A DNA stretch of 15,258 bases. Origin: Candidatus Desantisbacteria bacterium CG1_02_49_89 (GTDB lineage Bacteria > Desantisbacteria > UBA1551). Where the stretch lies: the NCBI GenBank assembly GCA_001871075.1, contig MNUP01000087.1:1-15258 (forward strand). Direction: 5' to 3'. Numbering within the stretch: position 1 is the stretch's first letter; each line of letters begins with the position of its first letter. The translations under genes and the position numbers were made by a program. Positions 1,234 through 12,858 of this stretch are shown here, piece after piece. The notes beneath the pieces were generated by a model, which was not told the DNA's origin, did not search any database, and saw only the letters and a list, made by a program, of their open reading frames with translations.

Positions 1234-2113
1234 CAACACCTCCCTGTCTCTGGCGCAGTCAAAAAAGCGCAGGTTTATAAAGGAAACGGCGCAGAAGGCG
1301 GTTGTTTACGTCCTGCTCAGCGTTGTGGGCGTGTTCATGCTGGTCCCGTTCATGTGGATGGTCACAACGTCCCTGAAGGACGCCGGTTCGGTTTTTGTTT
1401 TCTCCTGGATACCAAGGCAGTTCGAGTGGCGCAATTACGTGGAAGCGTGGAAGGGCGGGCCCACCGGGGTCTCGTTCACCAGGTTTTTCATGAACAGTAT
1501 ATTTGTCAGCTCCCTGGTAACGTTCGGTCAGGTGTTCACCTGCGCGTTTGCCGCGTTCGCGTTCGCCCGCCTGAAGTTCTGGGGCAGGGACAAGTTATTC
1601 CTGGCATACCTGGGCACGATGATGATACCCGGCGCGGTTACGATGATACCGGTTTATATCCTTCTGTCGTCCAGATACCTGAACTGGGTGAACTCGTACA
1701 AGGCGCTCATAATACCCGGCATGTTCGGCGGCGCCTTCGGCACGTTCCTTTTAAGGCAGTTCTTCCTTACCATACCCAAGGACCTTGAGGACGCTGCGAG
1801 GATCGACGGCTGCTCGACATTCGGGATTTTCTGGCGCATAATCCTGCCTCTTTCAAAACCGGCGCTGGCGACCCTGACCACGTTCACGTTCATGGGGGTC
1901 TGGAACGATTTCATCTGGCCGCTCATAGTAATAAATACTATGGAAAAGAAAACCCTGCCCGTGGCGCTGGCGTCTTTCCAGGGGATGTACTCGACTGACT
2001 GGCACCTGCTGATGGCCGCGTCCACGATCGTGCTTATGCCGGTGCTGATCGTTTACCTGTTCAACCAGCGTTTCTTTGTCAGGGGCATTGTTTTAACCGG
2101 GCTCAAGCAATAG
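1226..2113 (+). CDS. sugar ABC transporter permease, MalG/UgpE type
   Basis: Second inner-membrane permease of the same carbohydrate importer, 295 residues from the chosen ATG at 1226. That start is preferred over an in-frame ATG at 1178 because AGAAGG sits at 1214-1219 just upstream, and it gives a MalG-like cytoplasmic N-terminus before the first membrane segment (about 25-49). The EAA loop is at about 186-210 (LEDAARIDGCSTFGIFWR), followed by the MalG-type GVWNDFIWPLIV region and a short C-terminal tail ending near TGLKQ. It overlaps the first permease by 8 bases, so both are co-translated and expected to form the heterodimeric channel. The operon appears to end here: an 80-base repeat block follows. 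Confidence 0.93.
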   Translation: MSNNTSLSLAQSKKRRFIKETAQKAVVYVLLSVVGVFMLVPFMWMVTTSLKDAGSVFVFSWIPRQFEWRNYVEAWKGGPTGVSFTRFFMNSIFVSSLVTFGQVFTCAFAAFAFARLKFWGRDKLFLAYLGTMMIPGAVTMIPVYILLSSRYLNWVNSYKALIIPGMFGGAFGTFLLRQFFLTIPKDLEDAARIDGCSTFGIFWRIILPLSKPALATLTTFTFMGVWNDFIWPLIVINTMEKKTLPVALASFQGMYSTDWHLLMAASTIVLMPVLIVYLFNQRFFVRGIVLTGLKQ

Positions 2114-2119
2114 GAGATC

Positions 2120-2190
2120 CGTCGGGCGTCTTACGTCTTACGTCGTGCGTATCTAAACGTATGACGTACGACTTACGACGTACGACGATG
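2120..2190. repeat. ACGTACGAC-type quasi-palindromic repeat block
   Basis: The gap between the permease and tadB consists almost wholly of the words TACGTC, GTACGAC and TTACGAC in alternating orientation. TACGTCGTGCG at about 2139-2149 and CGTATGACGTA at 2158-2168 pair around a short loop, with wobble at the two differing positions. A related block lies inside the following gene at 2302-2338. There is no clear ribosome site before tadB because this block reaches almost to its ATG. Function is unknown. Confidence 0.8.
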
Positions 2191-2194
2191 TAAA

Positions 2195-2899
2195 ATGGAA
2201 ATACTAAAATACTGCGCTATTGGGCTGGCATTTGCCGCGGTTTATCTGCTGATCTCCGAGATCGGCAGATCTTCTTTTAAAATTACCGGTAAACCGGCTG
2301 GTCTTACGTCCGACGTACGACGTATGACGTCCGACGTTCTGTCCCGGCTGTTCCGCCGCGGGCAGACGCTTGAAGCGCAGCTTCCGGGCGCCCTTGATTT
2401 CCTCGCAAGCTCCCTGCGGTCCGGCTCAAGCGTCACACAGGCGATAAGCCTGCTCGCGGACGAATTCCCCCAGCCTGTATCCGGCGAGTTCGGCATGGTA
2501 TTAAAAGAAACCAGGATGGGCCTGCCCTTGCAGGAATCCCTTGAAAATCTCAGGAAACGGGTCAGGAACGCGGACCTTGACCTTGCGGTGACGTCTATAA
2601 TCATCTCGCGGGAAACAGGGGCCAGCCTTTCAGAGGTGCTGGGCAAGATCTCTTCGGTCATACGGGAACGCGGAAAAATAATAGGCAAGGCGAAAGCCCT
2701 TGTAAGCCAGGGCAAGATGCAGTCAATAGTGGTGGGGGTCCTGCCCGTCATTTTATGTTTCGTGATACTGGCGGTTGACCCCGGCTACATAATGCCGCTT
2801 TTTCGTAGACCCCTGGGATGGGCGATGATCGCCGCGGCTTGCGGCCTGGAATTCCTCGGGGTATTCTTTATAAGAAAGATCACACGGATTGAGGTTTAA
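2195..2899 (+). CDS. tadB: TadB-like type II secretion system F family protein
   Basis: Inner-membrane platform protein of a Tad (tight adherence) pilus/type II secretion system, 234 residues. Residues 3-22 form one membrane segment, the T2SF cytoplasmic domain spans about 60-170 (LPGALDFLASSLRSGSSVTQ, then SRETGASLSEVLGKISSVI), and two hydrophobic segments lie near 174-193 and 208-226. It is shorter than most TadB proteins, which usually run to about 300 residues with an extra N-terminal membrane region. The next gene is a second T2SF protein, the usual TadB-TadC pair. Residues about 37-48 (LTSDVRRMTSDV) are encoded by a dispersed repeat carried in frame. No Shine-Dalgarno sequence precedes the ATG because a repeat block abuts it. 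The ATPase TadA and the pilin are not in the window. Confidence 0.85.
   Translation: MEILKYCAIGLAFAAVYLLISEIGRSSFKITGKPAGLTSDVRRMTSDVLSRLFRRGQTLEAQLPGALDFLASSLRSGSSVTQAISLLADEFPQPVSGEFGMVLKETRMGLPLQESLENLRKRVRNADLDLAVTSIIISRETGASLSEVLGKISSVIRERGKIIGKAKALVSQGKMQSIVVGVLPVILCFVILAVDPGYIMPLFRRPLGWAMIAAACGLEFLGVFFIRKITRIEV
2302..2338. repeat. ACGTACGAC-type repeat inside tadB
   Basis: Within the tadB reading frame the words TTACGTC, GACGTACGAC and TATGACGTC recur, the same vocabulary as the intergenic block at 2120-2190. The stretch keeps the frame open and encodes the near-tandem peptide TSDVRRMTSDV in the linker between the first membrane segment and the T2SF domain, a place likely to tolerate insertions. 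Confidence 0.75.
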
Positions 2900-2905
2900 C
2901 CGCAC

Positions 2906-2980
2906 GTCATTGCGAGGTCGCCTTGGGCGACCGCGGCAATCCCTTTAAAAAATAGATTGCTTCGTTTCACTCGCAATGAC
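2906..2980. repeat. GTCATTGCGAG...CTCGCAATGAC terminal-inverted-repeat element
   Basis: An exact 11-base inverted pair (2906-2916 and 2970-2980) encloses a hairpin, GGTCGCC-TTG-GGCGACC at 2916-2932, and a second pairing of GCAATC with GATTGC. There is no reading frame inside, so it resembles a miniature or REP-like dispersed element. It fills most of the tadB-tadC gap. A second member with the same ends lies at 15129-15211. Similar GTCATTGCGAG palindromes are, from memory, found in many unrelated bacterial genomes. Confidence 0.88.
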
Positions 2981-3010
2981 ATACGATAGTCAAATTAGAA
3001 AAGGACAAAT

Positions 3011-3826
3011 ATGCTTTTATTGATAGCTTCAATGCTTCTGTTTCTGGCATTGTTCCTCGCAATCAGCGGGCTGTTGCGGACGGCGCGTGCGCCGAAGATA
3101 GAGAAAGGATCCTTCAGGCGCATGCTGGACAAAATAGGAACACTTAACAGCAGGCTGGAACTGCATAATTACAGGGACGGGACGCGCAGGAAACTGGATT
3201 ACGCCGGATACCCGGATCTCAGCGTTGATTCGTTCCTTGCCGTAAAAGAACTTGCTGGGGTAATCCTGCTCGCTATCCTTATTTATGCCACAGGGAATAT
3301 CAGCCCCGTTGCGGTGCTGGTCCCGGTCATCGGTTTTTTCCTGCCTGACCTGTGGCTGGGCGAAAAGGTGAGCCGCAGAAAAAATGGGATAATCAGAGAG
3401 CTTCCTTATTTCCTGGACATGGTTGCGCTGTGCGTTGAGGCAGGGCTTGATTTCGGCGCCGCGATCAACCGGATACTTGAGAAATCATCGCGCACCCCGC
3501 TTACCCGGGAGATCAGCATTATGCAGCAGGAAATAAAGGTCGGCAAGGGCAGGGAAGAAGCCCTGCGCAACCTGGCCGCGAGAACGGACATCCAGGAGGT
3601 CTCATCCTTCATTTCCAGCCTGATCCAGGCAGACAGGACCGGGGCAAGCCTTGGCCAGACCCTCAGGGTACAGTCGGAGCAGATAAGGACCGCGATATTC
3701 CAGAAGGCGGAAAAAACCGCGCATGAAGCGCCCGTTAAGATGCTTTTCCCGATGGTGCTTTTTATATTCCCGGTCATTTTCATTGTGCTTCTAGGCCCGG
3801 TTGTTTTGCAGATGATAGGGCGCTAA
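3011..3826 (+). CDS. tadC: TadC-like type II secretion system F family protein
   Basis: Second inner-membrane platform subunit of the Tad system, 271 residues. An N-terminal membrane segment (about 2-22) is followed by two hydrophobic stretches (about 80-94 and 98-112), the T2SF domain at about 128-240 (LPYFLDMVALCVEAGLDFGA, then RTGASLGQTLRVQSEQIR) and a strongly hydrophobic C-terminal segment at about 243-268. The motif order and length match TadC. AAGGA at 3001-3005 is well placed before the ATG. Its separation from tadB is due to the inserted palindromic element at 2906-2980; otherwise the genes would be nearly adjacent. With TadB it is expected to form the membrane base on which the ATPase acts. 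Confidence 0.88.
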   Translation: MLLLIASMLLFLALFLAISGLLRTARAPKIEKGSFRRMLDKIGTLNSRLELHNYRDGTRRKLDYAGYPDLSVDSFLAVKELAGVILLAILIYATGNISPVAVLVPVIGFFLPDLWLGEKVSRRKNGIIRELPYFLDMVALCVEAGLDFGAAINRILEKSSRTPLTREISIMQQEIKVGKGREEALRNLAARTDIQEVSSFISSLIQADRTGASLGQTLRVQSEQIRTAIFQKAEKTAHEAPVKMLFPMVLFIFPVIFIVLLGPVVLQMIGR

Positions 3827-3831
3827 ATTGT

Positions 3832-3864
3832 TATAACGATTTAACAACGATTCTATAACGATTT
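3832..3864. repeat. three tandem 11-bp units, TATAACGATTT type
   Basis: TATAACGATTT (3832-3842), AACAACGATTC (3843-3853) and TATAACGATTT (3854-3864) are consecutive 11-base units in the tadC-FHA gap. The last unit leads directly into AAGGAG, the ribosome site of the FHA gene. Confidence 0.75.
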
Positions 3865-3877
3865 TAAGGAGTTAAAC

Positions 3878-4759
3878 ATGGCCCGCTTAACAGTAATGCG
3901 AGGCGACAAAGAAGGCTGGGTCGCAGAGCTGCCCCAGAAGGAGTTTACGATCGGCCGCGACCCCACGAACGACTTCATCATTTCCGACATCGCGGTATCC
4001 AGGAAACACGCGATCATAAGATTCAGGTCCGGCAAATACAGCATACAGGATTACAGCGTTAACGGGACGAAGATCGGGGACAAGCGTATAAAGAAAACAG
4101 TGCTGGAAGAAGGGGATAAGATCGAGATAGGCGGCACCTTGTTCAGGTTCGAAACAGAAGCACCTCTCAGGCACCTTCAAAAGGTCAAACAACCTGAACC
4201 CTCTTCGGCCGTGCGCGAAACGGCCGAAGGCACTACCGTGATAAAAACCCCTGCGCGCGCTTCACGCTCCGCGCAGCCGTTCTGGTATATCCTGCTTGCC
4301 GTTGCCGCGGTATCCGCGGCTTTTTACTTTTCCTTTAAGGCACCTATAAAAAGAATATCTGTTTTCAAAACAGAAACAGCGAAGATCCTGCCGTTCGCGC
4401 CGTCCGCGGAACACTCTTCAGACCCGCAGTATTATTTCAGCATGGCAAACCGCCTGTACAAAGAAAAAGGCGTGAACGACTCCAACCTGTTTTTCACCAT
4501 CCAGTATCTTCGGAAAGGGCTGGAGCTTTACACAGGAGGGGACTCGGAAACCGTTTCTTTCGTCACGCGGAAAATGGCGGATATCGGCAAAGAACTTGAA
4601 ACAAAGGTAAAAGACGAGATGTTCGGCGCCTACCAGGCGTTCCACCTGGACAACACACAAGACTGCCGCGCGCACCTGGAAAGCGTAATGCGCCTTGTGC
4701 CGGACCCTTCAGATCCGTATCACCGTTCAGCTCGCGCCAAGCTTTCCGCATTAAAATAG
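3878..4759 (+). CDS. FHA-domain single-pass membrane protein of the Tad locus
   Basis: A 293-residue protein with an N-terminal forkhead-associated domain (about 1-95) that should bind phosphothreonine peptides. The key features are GR at 26-27, SRKH at 41-44 and NGT at 62-64. A linker of about 35 residues leads to one membrane segment (about 134-153, FWYILLAVAAVSAAFYFSF) and an extracytoplasmic C-terminal region of about 135 residues without a family I recognise. AAGGAG at 3864-3869 supports the ATG. FHA proteins are common companions of tad genes and probably recruit a phosphorylated secretion component. The TAG stop (4757-4759) lies inside the left repeat of the transposase cassette that follows, so the present last residues may not be the ancestral C-terminus. 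Confidence 0.87.
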   Translation: MARLTVMRGDKEGWVAELPQKEFTIGRDPTNDFIISDIAVSRKHAIIRFRSGKYSIQDYSVNGTKIGDKRIKKTVLEEGDKIEIGGTLFRFETEAPLRHLQKVKQPEPSSAVRETAEGTTVIKTPARASRSAQPFWYILLAVAAVSAAFYFSFKAPIKRISVFKTETAKILPFAPSAEHSSDPQYYFSMANRLYKEKGVNDSNLFFTIQYLRKGLELYTGGDSETVSFVTRKMADIGKELETKVKDEMFGAYQAFHLDNTQDCRAHLESVMRLVPDPSDPYHRSARAKLSALK

Positions 4760-4774
4760 GGACAGCCCCTATTT
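4754..4774 (-). repeat. REP hairpin, left end of RAYT cassette
   Basis: AAATAGGG (4754-4761), loop ACAGC, CCCTATTT (4767-4774). It is the reverse complement of the other full copies and contains the TAG stop of the FHA gene. Confidence 0.88.
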
Positions 4775-4832
4775 ATAATAACTCAAATAAATCAAGCGAA
4801 TTATTGAGTCTAAATCCAAAAAGGATTGAAAT

Positions 4833-5498
4833 ATGCCAAGAATTGCAAGGGCGGTCTGTGTAGATCTTCCACATCATGTTACGCAAAGAGGAAATAACCA
4901 ACAAAAGGTTTTTAAAAGAAAAAATGACCATGCATTCTATATTTCTTTAATGCGTAAATATAGCAAGATATTAAAACTGGAGATCTGGTCTTACTGTCTA
5001 ATGCCAAATCATGTTCATTTCATAGTTGTTCCGCGAGAACCTGATTCTATGGCAAAAACCTTTGACGTGGTTCATATGCTATACTCTCAATATTTTAACA
5101 GTAAAATGAACCGCAAGGGACACCTCTGGCAATCTCGATTTTATTCCTGCCTTTTAGATAACGATCATTTATGCGCAGCTGCTCGCTATATTGAAAGGAA
5201 TCCCGTAAGAGCGCGCATTGTTGACCGGCCGGAGGAATATCGCTGGTCCAGCGCTTATGCGCACATAAACAAAACTCCGGATAGACTTCTATCCGGTGAT
5301 TGTTTTCTTACTCATGAAATAACAGATTGGAAGAAATTCCTGACACATCCGGATGATGAAAAAATCCTTGAAAAACTGCGGAGCCGCACCAGATCAGGAC
5401 GTCCCGCAGGCAATGATGACTTTATAACAAATATAGAAAACAAACTGGGTAGAAGTTTTAATACAAGACCGAAAGGCAGACCCAGAAAACCTCAATAA
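4833..5498 (+). CDS. REP-associated tyrosine transposase (RAYT, Y1_Tnp family)
   Basis: Single-strand DNA transposase-like enzyme of the HUH class, 221 residues. The N-terminal HHVTQRGNN (about 14-22) and the metal-binding HUH motif MPNHVHFIV with His60 and His62 are clear. GHLWQSRFYSC (about 96-106) and ARYIERNPVRA (about 117-127), which contains the likely nucleophile Tyr119, match the family order. RAYT proteins recognise and cut their cognate REP hairpins. Inverted hairpins flank this gene and further copies lie 6-8 kb away, consistent with that role. The gene is more AT-rich than its neighbours, which fits acquired DNA. The ATG at 4833 follows AAAAAGGATTGAA, a fair ribosome site. All expected motifs are intact, so it may be active. 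Confidence 0.93.
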   Translation: MPRIARAVCVDLPHHVTQRGNNQQKVFKRKNDHAFYISLMRKYSKILKLEIWSYCLMPNHVHFIVVPREPDSMAKTFDVVHMLYSQYFNSKMNRKGHLWQSRFYSCLLDNDHLCAAARYIERNPVRARIVDRPEEYRWSSAYAHINKTPDRLLSGDCFLTHEITDWKKFLTHPDDEKILEKLRSRTRSGRPAGNDDFITNIENKLGRSFNTRPKGRPRKPQ

Positions 5499-5513
5499 AA
5501 TCAAGAAAATAAA

Positions 5514-5534
5514 AAATGGGGGCTGTCCCTATTT
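5514..5534 (+). repeat. REP hairpin, right end of RAYT cassette
   Basis: AAATGGGG (5514-5521), loop GCTGT, CCCTATTT (5527-5534). One G-T wobble replaces the A-T pair of the other copies. It touches the ATG of the metallophosphoesterase and leaves no room for a normal ribosome site. Confidence 0.88.
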
Positions 5535-6260
5535 ATGAAGTATGGAATTATATCTGACATTCATGGAAATTTAGAAGCCCTTAACGCCTGCCTTGAGTTC
5601 CTCGAAGGGACGGTAAAGGCATATATATGCGCCGGGGACATCGTTGGCTACGGCCCCCGCCCCAACGAATGCGTTGAAGCGGTCAGTAAGATCTCCGAAT
5701 TAGACGGGACTGTTGTAATATCCGGCAACCACGACCTTGCAGCCGTAGACTTGAAAGATGTTTCCTTTTTCAAAGAAGACGCGAAAAAAGCCATCCTGTG
5801 GACCGCGAAAGTCCTGACAGGCGAAAACAGGGATTTCATCTCAAAGCTCAAAACAAGGATCGACGCGCCGCATTTCACAGTGGCGCACGGCAGCCCCCGG
5901 GAGCCGGAAGATGAATACCTTATAGACGGCTACGCGATGAAAGAAAATCTTGCGTTCTTTAAAACAAAGGTCTGTTTTGTGGGCCACTCCCACATACCCC
6001 TGTTTTACGACAGGGGGCTTGTTATACTGGCTGACGGGGGCAAGGTGAAGGTCGTTGCCAGGAATAAAGCGATAGCAAGCCTTGGCTCTGTGGGCCAGCC
6101 AAGGGACAGGAACCCGTCCGCGTGCGCCGGTGTTTATGACGACAGGACAGGGGAGATCCTGGTGAAACGCTTCCCCTACAACATCCGCAAAACCCAGGAA
6201 GACATGGCGGCAGCCGGCCTGCCGCGGTCCTTGATCGAGCGATTAGCGCTGGGCATATAA
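5535..6260 (+). CDS. calcineurin-like metallophosphoesterase
   Basis: A predicted cytoplasmic dinuclear-metal phosphoesterase of 241 residues. The ligand motifs are in family order: SDIHGN (Asp8, His10), GDIVGYG (Asp35), GNHD (Asn65, His66), VAHGSP near residue 117 and a late GHSH near 150. These match the YfcE/MJ0936-like branch, whose members hydrolyse small phosphodiesters; the substrate here is unknown. The start is fixed by the conserved MKYGIISDIHGN opening. The ATG directly abuts the right hairpin of the RAYT cassette, so the native leader and ribosome site have been displaced and expression may depend on readthrough or on the cassette. It may once have followed the Tad genes directly. 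Confidence 0.9.
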   Translation: MKYGIISDIHGNLEALNACLEFLEGTVKAYICAGDIVGYGPRPNECVEAVSKISELDGTVVISGNHDLAAVDLKDVSFFKEDAKKAILWTAKVLTGENRDFISKLKTRIDAPHFTVAHGSPREPEDEYLIDGYAMKENLAFFKTKVCFVGHSHIPLFYDRGLVILADGGKVKVVARNKAIASLGSVGQPRDRNPSACAGVYDDRTGEILVKRFPYNIRKTQEDMAAAGLPRSLIERLALGI

Positions 6261-6265
6261 ATACA

Positions 6266-6296
6266 GTCATGGGCCACGAGTCATGGGTCATGGGTG
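6266..6296. repeat. TCATGGGTCATGGG-type repeat, left of four-helix-bundle gene
   Basis: The words GTCATGGG, GAGTCATGGG and TCATGGG follow each other here. The reverse complement, with related spacing, lies at 6677-6706 on the far side of the four-helix-bundle gene, so the two blocks form an imperfect inverted pair of about 30 bases. Confidence 0.78.
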
Positions 6297-6301
6297 AAAA
6301 A

Positions 6302-6671
6302 ATGGAAAAAATAAAAAGCTACAGAAATTTAGAGATCTGGCAGAAAAGCGTTGACTTAGTTACTGAAATTAGTTACTGAAATTTATAATATTACGAAAAC
6401 GTTCCCTTCGGAAGAGAAATTTGGCTTGATAAGCCAGATGACAAGAGCAGCGTCTTCTATTCCTTCCAATATTGCCGAAGGTTTCAGAAGAAGGTACAGC
6501 AATGAATTCAGGCAGTTTTTGCATATGTCGCTTGGTTCTATTGCGGAGCTCGAAACTCAGATCACAATCGCACAAAGACTTGGCTATATAGATAAAACAA
6601 GGGAAGAAACATTTTTAGGGGAATTGGATAAAATATCCAGGATGACTATGGGTCTTATAAAAAAGTTGTAG
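6302..6671 (+). pseudogene. four-helix-bundle protein (23S rRNA intervening-sequence protein family), frameshifted
   Basis: The ATG at 6302 opens MEKIKSYRNLEIWQKSVDLVTEI, the typical start of the four-helix-bundle/S23 family, but the frame stops at a TGA at 6377-6379 after 25 codons. The block TTAGTTACTGAAA occurs twice in tandem (6356-6368, 6369-6381). Removing one copy restores one frame of about 118 residues that continues YNITKTFPSEEKFGLISQM, then AASSIPSNIAEGFRRRYSNE and a normal C-terminus to the TAG at 6669-6671. The gene is thus inactivated by a single 13-base duplication, which looks recent because the rest is intact. A downstream ATG at 6426 leaves only the last 81 residues. Family members occur inside 23S rRNA intervening sequences and as free genes; their role is uncertain. 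Sequencing or assembly error is the alternative. Confidence 0.85.
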
Positions 6672-6676
6672 TTTTT

Positions 6677-6706
6677 ACTCATGACTCATAACCCATGACT
6701 CATGAC
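6677..6706. repeat. TCATGACTCATAACCCATGA-type repeat, right of four-helix-bundle gene
   Basis: Inverted partner of 6266-6296, made of ACTCATGAC, TCATAACCCATGAC and TCATGAC. It ends five bases before the AGGAGG ribosome site of the next gene. Confidence 0.78.
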
Positions 6707-6723
6707 AAAACGAGGAGGCCATA

Positions 6724-7212
6724 GTGATTAAGGTTAAAATTGAGGGCGTGGTATTAGATTTGAAATCCAACCTGCCCATAATAGTCCTGAGGGATGACAA
6801 GCAGAGGGTCCTGCCGATATCAGTGGGCTTGTTCGAGGCGCAGGCGATAGCGTTCGCCATGGAAGGCATCAAGATCCCCCGGCCTCTCACTCACGACCTT
6901 GCCAAAAGCATAATAGAAAAACTCGGGGCAAAGGTAATGCGGGTGGAGCTCACGGAATTGAAAGGCAATACCTATTTCGCCTACATTATAATGAAGCCGA
7001 AGGATGGTGAGGAGATAAGGATCGATTCCAGGCCCAGCGACGCGATAGCCATCGCCCTGCGGTTCCAGGCGCAGATATTCGCCTCCGAGGAACTGCTCCT
7101 GCTGCGGGAAACCTACAAACCAATAGACGAATCCGAGGTGAAATCCTTCAGGGAGATTATCGACAAACTGCCTCCGGATGAATTTTGGAAAAAGCTCCGC
7201 GACAAAAAATAA
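6724..7212 (+). CDS. bifunctional nuclease family protein (DUF151)
   Basis: A 162-residue protein matching the bifunctional nuclease (BFN, DUF151) family throughout: an opening VKIEGVVLDLKSNLPIIVLRD, the RVLPISVGLFEAQAIAFAME core, then PLTHDLAKSIIEKLGAKVMR and the signature SRPSDAIAIALRFQAQIFA near residues 103-119. Plant members cut DNA and RNA; bacterial ones are widespread and poorly characterised. The start codon is GTG at 6724 with AGGAGG at 6712-6717 six bases before it, the clearest ribosome site in the window. It is preceded by the four-helix-bundle cassette and followed within six bases by the repeat of the first GxxExxY cassette, but looks intact and chromosomal. Confidence 0.9.
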   Translation: MIKVKIEGVVLDLKSNLPIIVLRDDKQRVLPISVGLFEAQAIAFAMEGIKIPRPLTHDLAKSIIEKLGAKVMRVELTELKGNTYFAYIIMKPKDGEEIRIDSRPSDAIAIALRFQAQIFASEELLLLRETYKPIDESEVKSFREIIDKLPPDEFWKKLRDKK

Positions 7213-7217
7213 CCCTT

Positions 7218-7320
7218 TTAACCACGGTGCACACGGATACACACTGAGTATATTTTCAATTTAAACTAACCAACTAACAACTGATAACTGTCTTTGATAA
7301 CCACGGATGCACACGGATTA
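7218..7320. repeat. ACCACGGATGCACACGGAT-type repeats, left side of GxxExxY cassette 1
   Basis: Two copies point the same way: an outer one at 7218-7250 (AACCACGGTGCACACGGATA core) and an inner one at 7297-7320 (AACCACGGATGCACACGGAT core). Between them is an AT-rich spacer with the words AACTAACCAACTAACAACTG. Both have inverted partners to the right of the GxxExxY gene. Confidence 0.82.
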
Positions 7321-7354
7321 ACATAGTTTATTTTAAAATTAAAAAGGAATAAAG

Positions 7355-7759
7355 GTGAATAATAAAAGAATTGGGCTATTTAGTTCGGCAAGGAATCTAC
7401 TATATGAAGAATTGACAGGAAAAATAATTAATGCCGCCTTTAAAGTTCAGAATGAATTGGGATGTGGATTACTTGAAAAAATATACGAAAACGCTCTTGC
7501 CTGGGAACTGGAGCTAAACAACGAAAAGGTCTCAACTCAAAAAGAATATAAGGTATTTTACAGAGAAAAGGAAGTTGGTATATATTATGCCGATCTAATA
7601 ATAAGCGATAAAGTGATCATTGAGATAAAAACAGCAGAAATGATAGACAATATTCATCGTGCTCAGATCTTAAACTATTTAAAAATATCGGGTCTAAGAG
7701 TTGGCTTGATAATTAATTTTGCAAAACCAAAACTAGAATATGAAAGATTTATTATCTAA
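7355..7759 (+). CDS. GxxExxY protein (predicted PD-(D/E)XK fold), copy 1
   Basis: A 134-residue protein named for the motif GLLEKIY (about 39-45). The later stretch ADLIISDKVIIEIKTAE contains the D...ExK pattern of the PD-(D/E)XK nuclease superfamily, followed by AQILNYLKISGLRVGLIINF, typical of this family. Function is not established; nuclease activity is inferred from the fold prediction. The GTG start at 7355 has AAAGGA about eight bases upstream. The TAA stop (7757-7759) is formed by the first bases of the right-hand repeat. The gene is AT-rich compared with its neighbours and is enclosed by two nested pairs of inverted repeats, suggesting it arrived as a unit. A divergent homologue lies at 9930-10316 inside a different repeat family. 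Confidence 0.87.
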   Translation: MNNKRIGLFSSARNLLYEELTGKIINAAFKVQNELGCGLLEKIYENALAWELELNNEKVSTQKEYKVFYREKEVGIYYADLIISDKVIIEIKTAEMIDNIHRAQILNYLKISGLRVGLIINFAKPKLEYERFII

Positions 7760-7857
7760 CCGTGTGCATCTGTGGTTACTAAAGGTTATTATCCATAGAA
7801 GTTAGAAGTTTAAGCCAAAGATGTAATCCGAGTGTATCCGTGTGCATCTGTGGTTAC
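7757..7857. repeat. inverted partners of the ACCACGGATGCACACGGAT repeats, right side of cassette 1
   Basis: The inner copy at 7757-7778 (CCGTGTGCATCTGTGGTTA) pairs with 7297-7320. The outer copy at 7824-7857 (GTATCCGTGTGCATCTGTGG core) pairs with 7218-7250, so order and nesting are preserved on both sides of the gene. The outer copy ends just before the ribosome site of the next gene. Confidence 0.82.
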
Positions 7858-7867
7858 AAAGGATTTC

Positions 7868-9412
7868 ATGAAAAAAATAATATTGATATCCGTGGTTTTT
7901 TGTTTTTCCGTGGTTGCTTTCCGGGCGAGCGCGCAGGTGAGGAAGCCGGCGGTGGCGGGGCAGTTCTACCCGGCTGACAAAGCCCAACTGCAGGAGATGA
8001 TAAACTTCTTCCTTGAGAGCGCTGAGCCTTCCGGCCTGCCCGCGAACGCGAACAGCCGCCTCATAGGCGTTATAGTCCCTCACGCCGGCTACTTGTATTC
8101 AGGGCAGGTGGCGGCGTATGCTTACAAATTATTGGGGACAGTCACCTTTATCAGTGTCCCCATAACGGTCATTATCGCGGGGCCAAGCCACAGGTTCGCT
8201 CTTGATAAAATAGCCATTTATCCCTCGGGAACGTGGGAAACACCCCTGGGCAAAGTAAAGGTTGACACTGTTGCTGCCGGGATGCTGATGAACAGGAGCG
8301 CGATGATGCAGGAACTTGAACAGGCACACGCCACGGAGCACTCGCTTGAGGTTCAGGTCCCGTTCCTGCAGACGGTCCTGAAGGATTTTATGATAGTGCC
8401 CCTGGTCCTGGGTTACCCCCCGAACATCACCGCTGACGCGCTCACGAACGCCATAATAGATTCAGGGCTGTACAAGCGCCTGGGCAAAGACCTTATTCTG
8501 ATAGCTTCATCCGATATGTCGCACTACCATCCCTACGCTTCCGCCTGTATGATGGATGGAGCCTGCCTCACGGACATAGGATCGCTTGATATAAATACAT
8601 ATAAGGATAACGCGAGCAGGGGATCCACCGAAATGTGCGGGTCAGGGCCCGTTCTTGCGCTCCTTCAGATCGCGAAGAAACTCGGTGCGAAAGCAAAAGT
8701 GCTTAAATACGCGAACTCAGGAGATGTGCCCGCAGGGGACAAAGCAAGCGTTGTGGGCTACTGCGCCGTCGTTTTTTACACCGATACAAACGTAGTGGCA
8801 GAGCTTGCTCTGCCTAAAAATAGTAGCGGTGCGACGTTTCGTCGCACAGTTGAGGAAAAAGGGGGTGTTAAAATGCTTACCGATGCCCAGAAGAAAAGAT
8901 TGCTTCAGATAGCAAGGCAGACCCTTGAACAGTATATAAGGAGCAAGAAGGTCCCTGAGATTACTGAAACTGACCCGGTACTGACGGAAAAGAGGGGAGG
9001 TTTTGTAACCCTGACAAAGAACGGCCAGTTGAGAGGGTGTATTGGGTATATCCAGCCGGTTCTCCCGCTTTACCAAACAGTATCAAAAATGGCGATAGAA
9101 GCTTCCACGGCAGACCCCAGGTTTCCTGAAGTCCAGGCAAATGAACTTAAAGATATTCATATTGAAATATCAGCACTTACACCTATAGAGTTATTAAAAG
9201 ATGTTAATAAGATAGAAGTAGGGAAACACGGGCTTATTATCAAGAAGGGATTTAACCAGGGATTACTGCTTCCCCAGGTGGCAACTGACTATGGCTGGGA
9301 TAAATGGCAGTTCCTTGACCAGACCTGCGTAAAAGCAGGCCTTCCTCCCGGGTCCTGGAAGGATAAGGACGCCCAGATCTTTGTTTTCTCGGCAGAGGTG
9401 TTCGGAGAATAG
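7868..9412 (+). CDS. exported Memo-AMMECR1 fusion (AmmeMemoRadiSam system proteins B and A)
   Basis: A 514-residue fusion. The ATG at 7868 is chosen over an upstream in-frame start in the repeat because AAAGGA precedes it and MKKIILISVVFCFSVVAF with ASAQ is a good signal peptide. The Memo domain (about 24-315) has VPHAGYLYSG, AGPSHRF, TEHSLEVQVPFL, SSDMSHYHP and MCGSGP; the first two His and this Cys match the metal site described for human MEMO1. The AMMECR1 domain (about 336-514) has LRGCIGYIQP, STADPRFP and ISALTP. A and B proteins usually accompany a radical SAM enzyme, none of which is in the window; the system's role is unknown. The linker is encoded by two adjacent perfect hairpins, and an internal in-frame ATG at 8873 with GGGGGTG before it could start the AMMECR1 part separately. 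Confidence 0.9.
   Translation: MKKIILISVVFCFSVVAFRASAQVRKPAVAGQFYPADKAQLQEMINFFLESAEPSGLPANANSRLIGVIVPHAGYLYSGQVAAYAYKLLGTVTFISVPITVIIAGPSHRFALDKIAIYPSGTWETPLGKVKVDTVAAGMLMNRSAMMQELEQAHATEHSLEVQVPFLQTVLKDFMIVPLVLGYPPNITADALTNAIIDSGLYKRLGKDLILIASSDMSHYHPYASACMMDGACLTDIGSLDINTYKDNASRGSTEMCGSGPVLALLQIAKKLGAKAKVLKYANSGDVPAGDKASVVGYCAVVFYTDTNVVAELALPKNSSGATFRRTVEEKGGVKMLTDAQKKRLLQIARQTLEQYIRSKKVPEITETDPVLTEKRGGFVTLTKNGQLRGCIGYIQPVLPLYQTVSKMAIEASTADPRFPEVQANELKDIHIEISALTPIELLKDVNKIEVGKHGLIIKKGFNQGLLLPQVATDYGWDKWQFLDQTCVKAGLPPGSWKDKDAQIFVFSAEVFGE
8797..8847. repeat. two consecutive perfect hairpins in the interdomain linker
   Basis: GGCAGAGC-TT-GCTCTGCC at 8797-8814 and GTGCGACG-TTT-CGTCGCAC at 8829-8847 are perfect 8-base stems, both translated as part of the Memo-AMMECR1 linker. 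They look like palindromic elements inserted in frame, or the remnant of an intergenic region between once-separate genes. Confidence 0.8.
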
Positions 9413-9419
9413 CAAAAAC

Positions 9420-9537
9420 TGTTAGGTGAAGATGTTAGGAGAAAATGTTAGGTAAAAATGTTATTTAACGCTGTTATTTTATTAACAACCCTAACATCTT
9501 TGCCTAACATTAGTTCATAACATCATTAAAATAACAG
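9420..9537. repeat. TGTTAGGTGAAGATGTTAGG-type inverted repeat block
   Basis: The word ATGTTAGG or ATGTTA recurs four times at 9419-9464. The arm TGTTAGGTGAAGATGTTAGG (9420-9439) has an inverted partner at 9490-9509 differing at two transition positions. CTGTTATTTT (9471-9480) pairs exactly with AAAATAACAG (9528-9537). The block lies just after the AMMECR1 stop. It contains no convincing terminator T-tract and encloses no gene. Confidence 0.78.
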
Positions 9538-9565
9538 TTATTTCACAATTTATTTCACAATTTAC

Positions 9566-9594
9566 TTGACATTTAAGCCAATATATGCTATATT
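9566..9594 (+). promoter_or_regulatory. strong sigma70-type promoter for the riboswitch leader
   Basis: TTGACA at 9566-9571, a 17-base spacer, then TATATT at 9589-9594: consensus -35 and near-consensus -10 at ideal spacing. Transcription should start near 9601, about 70 bases before the riboswitch. Confidence 0.75.
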
Positions 9595-9671
9595 ATATAT
9601 AATCAAAGGTATAGCTACATTAAAGACATTTAAGACATTAGAAGATCATTTTTGACAATTGTTTGAATCGA

Positions 9672-9764
9672 GTCCTTCAAAGGCAAATCCCGGGAAACCG
9701 GGAATTGCGCAAAACTATAGGTTCTAAAACCGATAAGGTTATGAACGCCAGGTTACCAGGGGAC
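9672..9764 (+). ncRNA. cyclic-di-GMP-I (GEMM) riboswitch aptamer
   Basis: The layout matches the GEMM-I class. P1 can form from GTCC (9672-9675) with GGAC (9761-9764). GGCAAA at 9682-9687 leads into a hairpin closed by a GAAA tetraloop (TCCCGG-GAAA-CCGGGA, 9688-9703), then GCGCAAA (9707-9713), the expected tetraloop-receptor side. The second hairpin pairs GTTC (9721-9724) with GAAC (9743-9746) and AACC (9728-9731) with GGTT (9737-9740), and ends in GCCAGGTTACCA, equivalent to the family's GGGGTTACC. The ligand could be c-di-GMP or, in variants, cGAMP. It lies 30 bases upstream of a terminator. Assigned from remembered consensus. Confidence 0.82.
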
Positions 9765-9788
9765 ATTTATCTGCATCTGGACCGTTAG

Positions 9789-9842
9789 AACCCATTTGTC
9801 TCAATGGCTGCGTTCATGCCTTTGAGGTGAATGGTTTTTTTT
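9789..9842 (+). terminator. riboswitch-linked intrinsic terminator
   Basis: AACCCATTTGTCTCAA (9789-9804) pairs with TTGAGGTGAATGGTTT (9822-9837), with several wobbles and one mismatch, followed by eight T (9835-9842). GCGTTCAT in the loop (9810-9817) is the exact complement of ATGAACGC (9741-9748) inside the aptamer's second stem, offering a mutually exclusive pairing. If ligand binding holds the aptamer strand, the terminator should be favoured (an OFF switch); the direction is inferred. Confidence 0.75.
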
Positions 9843-9868
9843 ATCTTCTCATTGGACAAAAAAATAGG

Positions 9869-9915
9869 TCAATACACAAGATAAACCACGGAGACACAGA
9901 GGCACAGAGAAATAT
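9869..9915. repeat. ACCACGGAGACACAGAGGCACAGAG-type repeat, left side of GxxExxY cassette 2
   Basis: ATAAACCACGGAGACACAGA followed by GGCACAGAGAAATA. Inverted copies lie to the right of the gene at 10318-10372 and 10386-10440. The family is related to, but distinct from, the repeats of cassette 1. Confidence 0.82.
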
Positions 9916-9929
9916 AGGGGTTGTAGAAG

Positions 9930-10316
9930 ATGAAAAATACACCTTTAATTGAAGAGGAATTAACAAACAAGATCATAGCTGCTGCTATTGAAGTCCACAG
10001 TAACCTTGGTCCGGGATTACTGGAATCTGTATATGAAGAATGCCTTTGTAGAGAATTATCGTCGAGAAACATACCGTTTGAACGCCAGAAAGCAATTCCG
10101 ATCAACTATAAGGGTGAACAGATAGATTATAATTACAAAATAGATATGATAATCGATAACAAGGTTATAGTGGAACTTAAATGCGTAGAGCATATTTTGC
10201 CTGTTCACGAAGCGCAGGTATTAACCTATTTAAAATTAGCAAATATTAAAGTAGGTTTAATATTAAATTTCTATGCAGCTGTTTTACATAATGGTATCAA
10301 AAGGTTAGTTTTATAA
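9930..10316 (+). CDS. GxxExxY protein (predicted PD-(D/E)XK fold), copy 2
   Basis: A 128-residue homologue of the gene at 7355. The naming motif is GLLESVY (about 29-35) within VHSNLGPGLLESVYEECLCREL, and the nuclease-like core is KIDMIIDNKVIVELKCVE (D...ExK), followed by AQVLTYLKLANIKVGLILNF. The N-terminal LTNKIIAAAIEVH aligns with LTGKIINAAFKVQ of copy 1; by eye the two are clearly homologous but diverged, so this is not a local duplication. The ATG at 9930 lacks a strong ribosome site. The gene is AT-rich, lies between inverted repeats, and is the first gene downstream of the c-di-GMP riboswitch terminator, so its transcription may be under that switch whether or not it was the original target. 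Confidence 0.87.
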   Translation: MKNTPLIEEELTNKIIAAAIEVHSNLGPGLLESVYEECLCRELSSRNIPFERQKAIPINYKGEQIDYNYKIDMIIDNKVIVELKCVEHILPVHEAQVLTYLKLANIKVGLILNFYAAVLHNGIKRLVL

Positions 10317-10317
10317 T

Positions 10318-10440
10318 GGTATTGAGACAAATAGATTACTCTGTGTCTCCGTGCCTCTGTGGTTTATCCTTTTTAGCTTTGTATCGGTATTGAGACAAAT
10401 AGATTACTCTGTGTCTCCGTGCCTCTGTGGTTTATCCTTT
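10318..10440. repeat. two identical 55-bp direct copies of the CTCTGTGTCTCCGTGCCTCTG repeat
   Basis: The 55 bases at 10318-10372 recur without change at 10386-10440, a 68-base period. Each is the inverted partner of the left-hand repeat at 9869-9915. The second copy runs to the ATG at 10441 just before the winged-helix gene. Perfect identity suggests a recent duplication. Confidence 0.9.
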
Positions 10441-10452
10441 ATGGGGGTCTAT

Positions 10453-10755
10453 ATGAACGGAAATGGGATATTGCAAAAATTATTCACGTCGCGGGCGAGA
10501 GTGAAGCTCCTGAGCACGCTGGTCCTGCACCCGGACAGGTCCTTCTTTATGCGCGAGATCGCCAGGGAGACCGGCGAAACCTTCTCAAACATACGCAAGG
10601 AGATAAAGAACTTGGAGGAACTGAAGATAATAACCGGGGAACAGAACCACAGGGCTAAGTACTATATAATAAATACAGAGCATTATTTGTACCCTGAGCT
10701 CAAAGGCCTGGTGGTCAAGACTGAAGAATCAGAAGCAGTAACAAGTAACAAGTAA
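10453..10755 (+). CDS. winged helix-turn-helix regulator, nucleotidyltransferase-associated type
   Basis: About 100 residues from the ATG at 10453, preferred because GGGGGT lies just before it and because in-frame starts at 10351 and 10441 would translate repeat sequence or lack a ribosome site. RARVKLLSTLVLHPDRSFFMREIARETGETFSNIRKEIKNL is a winged-helix DNA-binding domain, and the tail YYIINTEHYLYPELKGLVVKT resembles the segment that, in many proteins of candidate-phylum bacteria, links such a domain to a nucleotidyltransferase domain. Here the protein ends right after KT in EESEAVTSNK, whose last codons and stop come from a triplicated 7-base repeat. The next gene but one repeat block away is a nucleotidyltransferase, so this may be a detached regulatory half or an autonomous repressor of the toxin-antitoxin genes. 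Confidence 0.78.
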   Translation: MNGNGILQKLFTSRARVKLLSTLVLHPDRSFFMREIARETGETFSNIRKEIKNLEELKIITGEQNHRAKYYIINTEHYLYPELKGLVVKTEESEAVTSNK

Positions 10756-10757
10756 CA
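10737..10757. repeat. three tandem AGTAACA units at the 3' end of the winged-helix gene
   Basis: AGTAACA occurs three times without a gap. It encodes the final residues and supplies the TAA stop. Confidence 0.8.
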
Positions 10758-10793
10758 AGCTAAAGGATCCATAAAATTTCCACGAAATCACTC

Positions 10794-10841
10794 CGCCCGT
10801 CTTTCAGCGGGCGAGACTTCGCCCACCTTAAAGGATGGGCG
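10794..10841. repeat. GC-rich double hairpin
   Basis: CGCCCG (10794-10799) pairs with CGGGCG (10808-10813), and CGCCCACCTT (10820-10829) pairs with AAGGATGGGCG (10831-10841) with a bulge. GGGCGA and TCGCCC in the middle allow an alternative fold. It sits inside an AT-rich ACCACGAAAGCACGAAA-type repeat (about 10778-10863), as if a GC-rich palindrome entered an older repeat. No gene is seen between 10756 and 10986. Confidence 0.6.
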
Positions 10842-10879
10842 AGGAAACCACGAAAGCACGAAAATAGATTTATTTTGTT

Positions 10880-10981
10880 CATGACTAATGACAGGAGACG
10901 AATGACGGTAGTTTAAATCCCGCTCGAAGATCCCTGTTAAAGGCTTTTTACAGGGATCTTGCGAAAGGGACTTAAAAAGCA
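10880..10981. repeat. CAGGGATCTT-family repeat, copy 1
   Basis: It contains GTAGTTTAAATCCCG and a hairpin ATCCCTGT (10930-10937)/ACAGGGAT (10950-10957) around TAAAGGCTTTTT, then CTTGCGAAAGGGACTTAAAAAGC. Related copies at 12650-12683, 13101-13165 and 14433-14541 are confined to the HEPN/MNT region. Confidence 0.78.
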
Positions 10982-10986
10982 CTGAT

Positions 10987-11430
10987 ATGAAGATAATGGG
11001 ATTGCAAAAAGTAAAATTGGGAAAGACAGCGAAGAAGTTCAGGCTGAAACTAATAATGGCTTTCGGGTCCCAGGTAAACGGAAAAACCCATCCCAAAAGC
11101 GACCTGGATATAGCCGTGTTATTCCCGAGCGGGGATTTTACATTTAAAAAATACGGCGAATTGCATAGCTCTCTCCTGGACGTTTTCCCCGGCTATGAAG
11201 TGGATATGGTCATATTAAACCGGGCTGACCCGCTGCTTCTTAAGAAAATAAACGAAAACCCGCTGCTGCTGTTTGGCAAAAAAAGGGATTTTGACGAATT
11301 CAGGATATACGCGTTTAACCGGTATGAAGATTATAGGCCGTATCTGGCTATGGAAGAAAAAATCGTGGATAACCTGGTAACGGAGATGCGAAATGAATAT
11401 AGACAAGGTTCTGGTAAAAAGAAAGTTTAG
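10987..11430 (+). CDS. MNT-domain nucleotidyltransferase antitoxin, module 1 (MntA-like)
   Basis: A 147-residue minimal nucleotidyltransferase. FGSQVNGKTHPKSDLDIAVL (about 26-45) is the GSx(9-10)DxD signature and YEVDMVILN supplies the likely third acidic residue; the C-terminal half carries YAFNRYEDYRPYLAMEE, typical of MntA partners of DUF86 HepT toxins. In characterised pairs the antitoxin adds AMP to a tyrosine of the toxin. The gene overlaps the following toxin by 38 bases, standard for this pair. No ribosome site is evident before the ATG at 10987, which lies five bases after a repeat; an internal ATG at 10996 is an alternative start. The function as antitoxin is inferred from the pairing and motifs. 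Confidence 0.85.
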   Translation: MKIMGLQKVKLGKTAKKFRLKLIMAFGSQVNGKTHPKSDLDIAVLFPSGDFTFKKYGELHSSLLDVFPGYEVDMVILNRADPLLLKKINENPLLLFGKKRDFDEFRIYAFNRYEDYRPYLAMEEKIVDNLVTEMRNEYRQGSGKKKV

Positions 11431-11926
11431 CCTGATAATCAGCGATATGCTCAGGTTAAAACCCATGGCAAAACTTACGATCAAAGAATATAGGGCGGAA
11501 TTTGAGAATGAGATCCTTGCCGAAAGATACCTTGAAAGAATAATAGGCAGGACGATAGACGTAAATTACCATTCGATAGCAGGCCTTGGCAATCCGCCGC
11601 CTAAGGATTACTATGAATCCTTCGTTGAAATGGGCGAGCTTGGCATTATATCAATTGCGCTGGCTGAAAAAATGGCAAAGGCGTCAGGCCTGCGCAACCG
11701 CCTTGCTCATGAATACAACGGCATTGATGAAAAGAAGGTCTTTGAGTCAATAAAAATCTGCCTGGAAGGATTTGCCCGAATATATGCATCAGGTAAACAG
11801 TTATTTAAAGAATCTTCCGCATTAGTTCCTTGGTTAATGAGCAGGGAATCATCTCTTACAGTTTCAGTGCCTGAATTTACGTTGATAAATAAGGGTTTAA
11901 AAAAATGGGGGCTGTCCCTATTTTAG
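11393..11926 (+). CDS. HepT-like HEPN ribonuclease toxin (DUF86), module 1, with repeat-derived tail
   Basis: A 177-residue HEPN toxin of the DUF86/HepT family, which cleaves RNA. The domain runs from about 27 to 140 (YLERIIGRTIDVNYHSIA near 44-61) and ends with the active-site motif RNRLAHEY (about 102-109), that is Rx4H followed by xY, the tyrosine being the AMPylation site in studied homologues. Family members usually end near 140 residues. Here about 31 additional residues after KESSALVP are encoded by a dispersed repeat at 11832-11923 whose last part is the RAYT hairpin, giving the tail LKKWGLSLF and the TAG just after it. The start overlaps the antitoxin; an internal ATG at 11465 is possible. 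The core motifs are intact, so activity is plausible. Confidence 0.85.
   Translation: MNIDKVLVKRKFSLIISDMLRLKPMAKLTIKEYRAEFENEILAERYLERIIGRTIDVNYHSIAGLGNPPPKDYYESFVEMGELGIISIALAEKMAKASGLRNRLAHEYNGIDEKKVFESIKICLEGFARIYASGKQLFKESSALVPWLMSRESSLTVSVPEFTLINKGLKKWGLSLF
11832..11923. repeat. composite repeat ending in a RAYT-type hairpin, copy 1
   Basis: It begins TTGGTTAATGAGCA, has a variable middle, then TTTCAGTGCCTGAATTT, GTTGATAAATAAGG and the hairpin AAATGGGG-GCTGT-CCCTATTT (11903-11923). The second copy is at 13164-13256. The first copy is read as the C-terminus of the HepT gene. Confidence 0.88.
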
Positions 11927-11944
11927 AAAACATTTGGAGGCAAT

Positions 11945-12271
11945 ATGAACAATAAAATAAGAAAGGTGATAGATGAAATTGTCAGGAAACTGAAAACTAA
12001 ATATAGGCCTGAAAGGGTAATACTTTTCGGTTCATTCGCAAACGGAAAACCGACAAAAGATTCGGATATTGATTTGTTGATAATAAAAGAAACAAGTAAG
12101 GAAAAAATTAATAGATTCGTAGAAGTAAAGAAAGCCATTTATAATCCTGAACGCGGCATTCCTGTTTCACCGATAGTCTTGACGGAAAAAGAACTAAACA
12201 ACAGAATTGAAATAGGAGATGACTTCATAAAAGAAATAATCAAAGAAGGAGTGATGATTTATGAAAAATGA
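11945..12271 (+). CDS. MNT-domain nucleotidyltransferase, module 2
   Basis: A 108-residue minimal nucleotidyltransferase. FGSFANGKPTKDSDIDLLII (about 29-48) is the GSx(9-10)DxD signature, and the lysine- and glutamate-rich remainder with GIPVSPIVLTEKEL fits short MNT proteins that pair with HEPN proteins. GGAGG at 11936-11940 supports the ATG at 11945. The partner gene starts 11 bases before its stop. It is not a close copy of module 1: it is shorter, has a different C-terminus and resembles the HI0073 type. It begins 18 bases after the repeat-supplied stop of module 1, so it may be co-transcribed with it. Confidence 0.86.
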   Translation: MNNKIRKVIDEIVRKLKTKYRPERVILFGSFANGKPTKDSDIDLLIIKETSKEKINRFVEVKKAIYNPERGIPVSPIVLTEKELNNRIEIGDDFIKEIIKEGVMIYEK

Positions 12272-12644
12272 AATTGTGGAAGAGTGGTTTGAAAGAGGAA
12301 AGCATGACCTGGATGCTGCCAGGATTGTTATGGAAGAAAAAGGCTATCCGGATGTTATAATGATGCTTCTGCATCAGGCACTTGAAAAATACATCAAGGG
12401 ACACCTTATCATGCAAGGTTGGAAATTAAAAAAGATCCATGATCTTGAAACGCTTTTTACAGAAGCTGGTAAGCATGATAAAATTTTTGCAAAACATCTG
12501 GATCTTGGGAGAATCCTTACTGCTTATTATTATGAAAACCGCTATCCTCCGGGGCCAATACCCGGAATTAATAAAAAGAAAATTAGGACTATATACAGCA
12601 CGACATTAAAAATAATAAAACTTTTTATAAAAAAACACAGTTAA
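12261..12644 (+). CDS. HEPN-domain protein, module 2
   Basis: A 127-residue all-helical HEPN-domain protein: VEEWFERGKHDLDAARIVME at the start, HQALEKYIKGHLIMQGW (about 38-54), KKIHDLETLF (about 57-66) and YYYENRYPPG (about 90-99), the order seen in the HEPN (PF05168-like) family. The classical Rx4-6H ribonuclease motif is not visible, so it may work by binding or be regulated differently from module 1. It overlaps its nucleotidyltransferase by 11 bases, so the two are co-translated. A toxin-antitoxin role is likely by analogy with other MNT-HEPN pairs but not shown by the sequence. Confidence 0.85.
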   Translation: MKNEIVEEWFERGKHDLDAARIVMEEKGYPDVIMMLLHQALEKYIKGHLIMQGWKLKKIHDLETLFTEAGKHDKIFAKHLDLGRILTAYYYENRYPPGPIPGINKKKIRTIYSTTLKIIKLFIKKHS

Positions 12645-12649
12645 GATTG

Positions 12650-12683
12650 TTACAGGGATCTTGCAAAAGAGATTTAAAAGGCT
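12650..12683. repeat. CAGGGATCTT-family repeat, copy 2 (partial)
   Basis: ACAGGGATCTTGCAAAAGAG and ATTTAAAAGGC match the right half of copy 1, without the upstream arm of the hairpin. Confidence 0.72.
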
Positions 12684-12687
12684 CAGC

Positions 12688-12805
12688 CGCGGATTCACAC
12701 GGATGAAGGATTAACCACGGAGACCCCCTGCAGCTGCTGCGCAGCTCAACGCAGGGGCCTGCGCGCCAGAACCAAGCGGATGGCGCTTCGGACGGAGGCA
12801 CGGAG
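12688..12805. repeat. ACCACGGAG repeat interrupted by a GC-rich palindrome
   Basis: CGGATTCACACGGATGAAGG and TTAACCACGGAGA (to about 12723) belong to the ACCACGGA families of the GxxExxY cassettes; CGGAGGCACGGAG resumes at 12793. Between them lies a GC-rich insert with CCCCTGC (12725-12731) pairing with GCAGGGG (12751-12757) and inner stems. No gene is visible between 12645 and 12846. Confidence 0.65.
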
Positions 12806-12823
12806 TATTCCTTGCATATGTAA

Positions 12824-12843: not shown

Positions 12844-12858
12844 AAAGTGAAAGAAAAA

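Follow-up and report, generated by a model that had tools for sequence, protein, structure and literature searches.

The 15,258-nucleotide (nt) window analyzed here is one entire contig (C114; MNUP01000087.1, positions 1 to 15,258) of the 2.48-Mb draft genome of Candidatus Desantisbacteria bacterium CG1_02_49_89, and a relative from the same order (G001) was used for comparison. An earlier note had described four single-gene cassettes in it, each between inverted repeats, and all four were recovered: RAYT (4754-5534), S23 (6265-6707), GxxExxY copy 1 (7211-7865) and GxxExxY copy 2 (9886-10430). The RAYT gene was assigned to PF01797/NF047646 as RAYT-like, the four-helix-bundle gene to the S23 / 23S_rRNA_IVP family (PF05635/TIGR02436), and the two GxxExxY genes to PDDEXK_3 (PF13366/TIGR04256). 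Inverted repeats do frame each gene; those of S23 and GxxExxY, which had been taken for simple repeats, are short tandem arrays. The unit varies from copy to copy, as had been claimed, but within one array architecture per protein family rather than as a different repeat family for each cassette.

The RAYT/Y1_Tnp gene (4833..5498, plus strand) matched PF01797 with an E value of 3e-13 and NF047646 with 71.6 bits, under the cut-off of 80. Its left arm, a hairpin-type repeat (GGGACAG..CCCCTATTT; 4754..4779, plus strand), is 88% complementary to the right arm (5509..5534, minus strand; inverted repeat I7).

The S23 gene (6303..6671, plus strand) is frameshifted; the part from 6363 to 6671 matched PF05635 with an E value of 1e-34 and scored above the curated TIGR02436 cut-off. 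Its arrays (inverted repeats I8/I12) lie at 6265..6295 on the plus strand (AGT CATG GGC CACG AGT CATG GGT CATG GGT) and at 6677..6707 on the minus strand (reverse complement TGT CATG AGT CATG GGT TATG AGT CATG AGT). Each is 31 nt long and is made of five cores, mostly NGT, and four 4-nt linkers. The frameshift results from 13 bp that are exactly duplicated in tandem at 6356-6381, and the copy is therefore either broken or misassembled.

The gene of GxxExxY copy 1 (7355..7759, plus strand), a predicted PD-(D/E)XK nuclease, matched PF13366 with an E value of 1.6e-37 and exceeded the TIGR04256 cut-off. The outer left array (7223..7248, plus strand) has three CAC... cores at a pitch of 9-10 nt and is followed by an inner left array (CACGGATGCACACGGATTAACATAG; 7302..7326, plus strand), while the inner and outer right arrays are found at 7760..7775 and 7828..7853, respectively, on the minus strand. 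The repeats had been called doubled and nested, and indeed the outer and inner pairs are mirrored within a single imperfect inverted repeat of 107 nt (7211-7317 versus 7760-7865). In GxxExxY copy 2 the left array CCACGGAGACACAGAGGCACAGAG (9886..9909, plus strand; inverted repeats I1/I3) has three cores at a pitch of 8 nt and precedes the gene (9930..10316, plus strand; PF13366 E 3.3e-45, TIGR04256 157 bits). The right array (10339..10362, minus strand) recurs at 10407..10430 on the same strand as part of a 68-nt direct duplication (direct repeat D1, inverted repeat I3). A c-di-GMP-I riboswitch (RF01051, 53 bits) was identified at 9672-9760, just upstream of this cassette, which may have parted it from the helix-turn-helix (HTH) gene that it formerly controlled. 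A gene-less array of S23 type (AGTAACA three times plus AGC; 10737..10760, plus strand), recognized from its sequence, overlaps the HTH gene at its 3' end.

Arrays flanking S23 and GxxExxY genes

In the source genome 10 S23, 5 GxxExxY and 10 Y1_Tnp matches were identified. When 200-nt flanks of each open reading frame (ORF) were scored for inverted repeats, a score of 15 or more was reached by 6 of 8 S23, 4 of 5 GxxExxY and 7 of 9 Y1_Tnp ORFs, compared to 2 of 133 other ORFs. These two, which by eye resemble a speB-like gene and smpB, both lie between such arrays, so arrays can frame ordinary genes too. Among 290 diverse genomes, S23 was present in 112 and GxxExxY in 69; the first samples examined had a strong inverted repeat at 20/28 S23 and 16/29 GxxExxY genes versus 6/348 control positions. 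A named S23 set from one scan of a genome collection, spanning Xanthomonas to Planctomycetes, Bacteroidetes, Nitrospirae, Chloroflexi, Clostridia and Methanophagales, was flanked by inverted repeats in 55 of 79 cases, and in Lysobacterales, the order of Xanthomonas, the proportion was 27 of 29. Across Bacteria and Archaea, inverted arrays, for the most part with a unit of 7-8 nt, flank 81 of 104 S23 genes and 2 of 104 size-matched ORFs of the same loci (Fisher p 2e-33). The predicted enrichment over size-matched genes was thus observed directly.

Of the S23 genes on cyanobacterial plasmids, nine out of ten have array arms, including TAGGGAG, AACAGGG, AGCTTTT, AAAAGGG, AGGGTGT and AGGTGAC, which are heptamers of the short tandemly repeated repetitive (STRR) type. 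Some cyanobacterial cassettes (loci L222, L225 and L230) are located between nrdB and nrdA and some between cas6 and cas4; the latter occupy two type I-D CRISPR operons and carry differing heptamers.

Nearly all S23 arms in the source genome are a row of one short, copy-specific unit (GCTCATA, CGTGTAA, CAGTGGT, ACGTCGT, AAATTGT and GGTTAAA among them). A period of 7 was measured for 88 and a period of 8 for 15 of the 108 clear S23 arms; the 88 period-7 arms contain 74 distinct 7-nt units, and the upstream arm is richer in G than in C in 101 of the 108. GxxExxY arms have a period of 8-10 in 36/38 cases, with CAC(A/G)GA(G/T)-like or CRCRRAK cores at the same 8-10-nt pitch, and CRCRRAK chains of this type reach a maximum of three cores. 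Architecture and family-specific pitch can therefore be read directly from the arms.

Unit number was studied in gene-less arrays from 280 kb of the source genome, chosen regardless of S23 and GxxExxY genes. Their length peaks sharply at 31 nt (20/88), aligned as five conserved triplets and four more variable 4-nt linkers. Four or five cores were counted in 50 of 55 arrays, while simulated arrays with a geometric unit number had a far broader tail; since array ends were defined by matching columns, the claim is for 4-5 cores and not strictly five. The Xanthomonas S23 protein (S23p) has been described as a toroidal homopentamer (PMC4990558), and the solved structures of S23 homologs, 2gsc and 2rld, contain five chains each. 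Together with the 4-5 cores, these structures make it attractive to suppose that one S23 protomer may read each array unit. A separate family of 9-nt arrays (AGTTTACAGAGTTTACA...) is common in the source genome (L065 6273-6400, L071 622-699 and others), for which a partner gene was not found.

Gene-less arrays and the presence of the genes

S23-negative genomes, sampled over 353 kb (44 kb of it from G001), gave no period-7 arrays. S23-positive genomes yielded 13 in 394 kb, four of which flank an S23 gene, and the source genome 37 in 280 kb, a sample without S23. It is very improbable that these are ordinary slippage microsatellites adjoining small genes by chance, even if earlier work cited in PMC4692102 ascribed heptameric simple repeats to polymerase slippage. 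The arrays are mirrored about the gene and have variable linkers between conserved cores, the range of unit numbers is narrow, the 353 kb of S23-negative DNA are free of them, and the flanks of S23 are strongly enriched. As the sole origin, slippage is contradicted by the unit-number and control data.

In some Lysobacterales S23 lies between accB and accC (both identified from sequence) with GGGA(A/T)TC arms, which in Xanthomonas read GGGAATC; the L234, L237 and L238 genomes have one S23 each. Eight genomes with S23 at this site gave 291, 337, 413, 354, 426, 57, 98 and 20 matches to three consecutive GGGAWTN units, the genome with 20 having a broken S23. Among twelve relatives without S23 there, eleven had no match and one had a single match (Fisher 8e-6, or 7e-5 if the single match is counted). 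Based on accC identity to Xanthomonas, the positives (100-91% and 83-78%) are both nearer and farther than the negatives (88-89%) and are therefore not simply one clade. A sample of 20 kb from each of the 20 Lysobacterales genomes gave 1 versus 0 period-7 arrays and was too small to be of use.

Triple arrays of GxxExxY type were present in 10 of 12 gene-positive and 1 of 19 gene-negative genomes (p 1.5e-5), with 130 in the source genome and none for a reversed-pattern control; as with GGGAWTN, the pattern was picked after the arms had been seen, and matches are positions of the search window, long arrays being counted repeatedly. The earlier note had asked whether the same repeats are equally common away from the genes. 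Gene-less arrays do far outnumber cassettes, yet genomes that lack the gene have almost none of them. Thus, for both S23 and GxxExxY, the repeat that frames the gene is also dispersed, and the dispersed repeat depends on the gene.

The array unit was found to follow the protein. S23 pairs within one genome shared the unit at 68% and 80% identity and mostly did not at lower similarity; over all clear cases unit and protein identity were correlated (Mantel r 0.21, p 0.002), driven by pairs above 60% identity. In addition, gene-less arrays fit the S23 arms of their own genome better than 60 foreign draws. The expected tracking of protein relatedness by repeat sequence was borne out in this way, and the co-inheritance of unit and protein is a direct observation.

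Twenty of 68 gene-less arrays are located inside ORFs, and 9 of 45 have an inverted partner within 160 nt. These pairings bear on an RNA-level explanation, in which pairing of the arms would give the S23 transcript a stem that is removed or processed like a 23S rRNA intervening sequence (IVS) and the arrays would be RNase III-type stems. The arms are inverted and complementary, and S23p is known from IVS elements of rRNA whose terminal stem measures 28 bp (PMC4990558). Most gene-less arrays, however, are without a nearby inverted partner, a tandem heptad is unnecessary for a stem, and none of 60 scanned S23 loci is in rRNA; this explanation is judged improbable. The narrower candidate, S23 as a 23S rRNA IVS, was rejected: no rRNA match was found in the window or in the 60 S23 loci. 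Near an S23 cassette in L280, matches to the Acido-Lenti-1 small RNA (RF01687; 3938-4556) resemble members of a dispersed hairpin repeat.

Occupied and empty sites and the role of the proteins

The accB-accC site is occupied by S23 in Xanthomonas, Luteimonas and Dokdonella, while relatives with approximately 89% accC identity have an array-free gap of 10-12 nt. In G001, where neither S23 nor GxxExxY was found, phosphoesterase and BFN are separated by 58 nt at the syntenic site, and no cassette lies between BFN and AMMECR1. Cassette-free orthologous sites, which the earlier note had proposed to look for, therefore exist. These junctions are too diverged to read a target-site duplication, and no transposase was identified inside the S23 and GxxExxY cassettes. 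Empty sites and scattered loci would be compatible with mobility.

The most probable explanation is that the cassettes of S23 and GxxExxY are elements in two parts, gene and array, similar to RAYT and its REPINs without the Y1 transposase, and that the encoded protein would bind the array of its own element. In such an element a single small gene would be enclosed by a short array and its inverted copy, with the paired arrays marking the ends: for S23 mostly 4-5 short cores, spaced at 7 nt (sometimes 8 nt) by variable linkers, and up to three CRCRRAK cores at an 8-10-nt pitch for GxxExxY. The protein would bind its array as an oligomer with one protomer per unit (for S23, a homopentamer) and would hold, copy or maintain its own ends as well as gene-less arrays elsewhere, on which it would act in trans in the manner of RAYT and REPINs. 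Binding specificity would drift, giving each cassette and its array population a unit of their own. As no catalytic residue set is visible in S23, an enzyme of the host or one acting in trans would be required for strand transfer or copying. In GxxExxY the E, D, E-x-K and Q residues of PD-(D/E)XK are invariant, in agreement with its family assignment, and since these residues are kept this predicted nuclease may itself be able to nick or cleave the DNA of the arrays. Its structure model has a mean pLDDT of 65, which makes it too weak for a claim of function; the best fold matches (Z approximately 6) include PD-(D/E)XK nucleases and unrelated proteins.

The main rival holds that S23 and GxxExxY are host regulatory or RNA-processing proteins and the arrays are operator or mRNA sites, autoregulatory at the gene and a regulon elsewhere, with no mobility. 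The retention of S23 between accB and accC would suit such a role, as would the reading of Geobacter tandem hepta- and octamers as global regulator sites (PMC2700814) and the finding that most Xanthomonas arrays have the same neighboring genes in two species (PMC4692102). A regulator would hardly be expected to occur as up to ten S23 genes in the source genome, sporadically placed and for the most part unrelated in their units, to be scattered across Lysobacterales, or to have a patchy distribution on plasmids and inside operons (between nrdB and nrdA or cas6 and cas4, for example); nor would nearly a third of gene-less arrays be expected inside ORFs. We therefore regard the host-regulator explanation as unlikely.

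Several observations weigh against the proposed gene-array elements. Roughly one fifth to one quarter of S23 genes have no clear inverted repeat, and neither transposition nor binding was observed. A search of multi-copy genomes for nearly identical S23 cassettes at sites far apart in the same genome found none, the closest pairs being neighboring local duplicates. Five cores are not exclusive, four being equally common, and arms beside S23 genes can also be longer, some with up to 26 units. The AAT/ATT preference of dispersed arrays matches the S23 arms only loosely. Two genomes (G141 and G270) carry GxxExxY with no matches to the ACCAC-type pattern, and G009 has 13 triple arrays of GxxExxY type with no GxxExxY gene detected, its partner possibly having been lost or diverged. 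Finally, S23 is kept between accB and accC in two families, Dokdonella belonging to Rhodanobacteraceae and Xanthomonas to another, and looks domesticated there; a domesticated or maintenance role fits this long retention equally well. The interpretation in the earlier note is hence supported in part: the RAYT-like bond between gene and repeat strongly, by enrichment, unit tracking and gene-dependent arrays, whereas the cassettes may be mobile, in keeping with the empty sites, or may equally well have a domesticated or maintenance role.

A wider proposal is possible, if doubtful: that these cassettes form a class of DNA elements, mobile or able to maintain themselves, whose protein is an oligomer other than a transposase and reads the tandem array with one subunit on each unit. 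Unit number would then mirror the oligomer (about five cores for the S23 pentamer, three for GxxExxY), specificity and unit would diverge together so rapidly that almost each cassette has a heptamer of its own, and most heptameric repeats of bacteria would derive from such elements.

A PADLOC search gave weak Cas4-like or PDC-S11 matches for GxxExxY and no defense-system match for S23 or RAYT, and no GxxExxY relatives were found in viral contigs. Elsewhere in the window, hairpin-forming repeats were noted within the Memo-AMMECR1 reading frame at 8134-8161 (GGGGACAGTCACC..GTGTCCCC, similar to the RAYT repeat) and 8829-8847 (GTGCGACGTTTCGTCGCAC), and a gene-less hairpin of TGTTAGG units with a spacing of approximately 13 nt at 9420-9524. 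Nucleotidyltransferase/HEPN-type gene pairs are clustered at 10987-14257, with PADLOC matches to PDC-S09 and PDC-M05A.

Relation to known systems

S23 and GxxExxY are very common genes without a known function, and their link to arrays provides a testable one, namely that the protein reads and maintains its array. A text search of PubMed Central, in which subscription papers are mostly not covered, returned no paper tying either gene to these arrays. The STRR heptameric repeats (Xanthomonas GGGAATC, Nostoc GGGGA(C/T)T, Geobacter, and Beggiatoaceae TAACTGA) have the same 7-nt pitch, about four units and often convergent pairs; S23 arrays, with several tandem 7-nt units, are of this type. PMC4692102 reports 186 and 183 arrays in Xanthomonas, with 70 and 75 convergent pairs, the 186 arrays and 70 pairs being those of X. 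campestris, mostly of four units. In the portions available, the STRR papers describe the arrays alone and do not mention S23; the link made here comes from Xanthomonas and cyanobacteria. These repeats have long been catalogued without agreement on their origin, and because they match the ends of S23 cassettes, the latter are a likely source of the heptameric repeats of both groups.

In the 23S rRNA IVS of Leptospira, Coxiella and Brucella, a protein of this family, S23p, is likewise encoded between inverted repeats at the termini (PMC4990558), whereas the S23 elements described here are located in protein operons and intergenic gaps and end in heptad arrays. The accessory protein Avd (bAvd) of diversity-generating retroelements belongs to a related four-helix-bundle family (PF22296 25.8 bits and NF033474 27.6 bits, both under the cut-off), but no reverse transcriptase or variable repeat was seen in the window, to which that search was confined. 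Miniature inverted-repeat transposable elements and insertion sequences share inverted ends and gene-less derivatives; unlike them, S23 and GxxExxY cassettes are without a transposase and their end sequences vary by copy.

The closest parallel is RAYT/REPIN, in which RAYT acts on REPINs in trans with long vertical retention in places (PMC8049555). In both systems a small gene is framed by its own repeat, often as one gene with tens to hundreds of gene-less copies, and the repeat is nearly absent without the gene. S23 (PF05635) and GxxExxY (PF13366) have no Y1/HUH domain and no PF01797 match, which in the window was obtained for the RAYT at 4833-5498 only, and their ends are tandem arrays of limited core number with a cassette-specific unit instead of palindromic REPs. 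Lacking the defining Y1 transposase, they are not members of RAYT/REPIN. Through them its idea is extended to two protein folds that are unrelated, an indication that the pairing of a gene with a repeat is a general route by which tiny elements persist in bacterial genomes.

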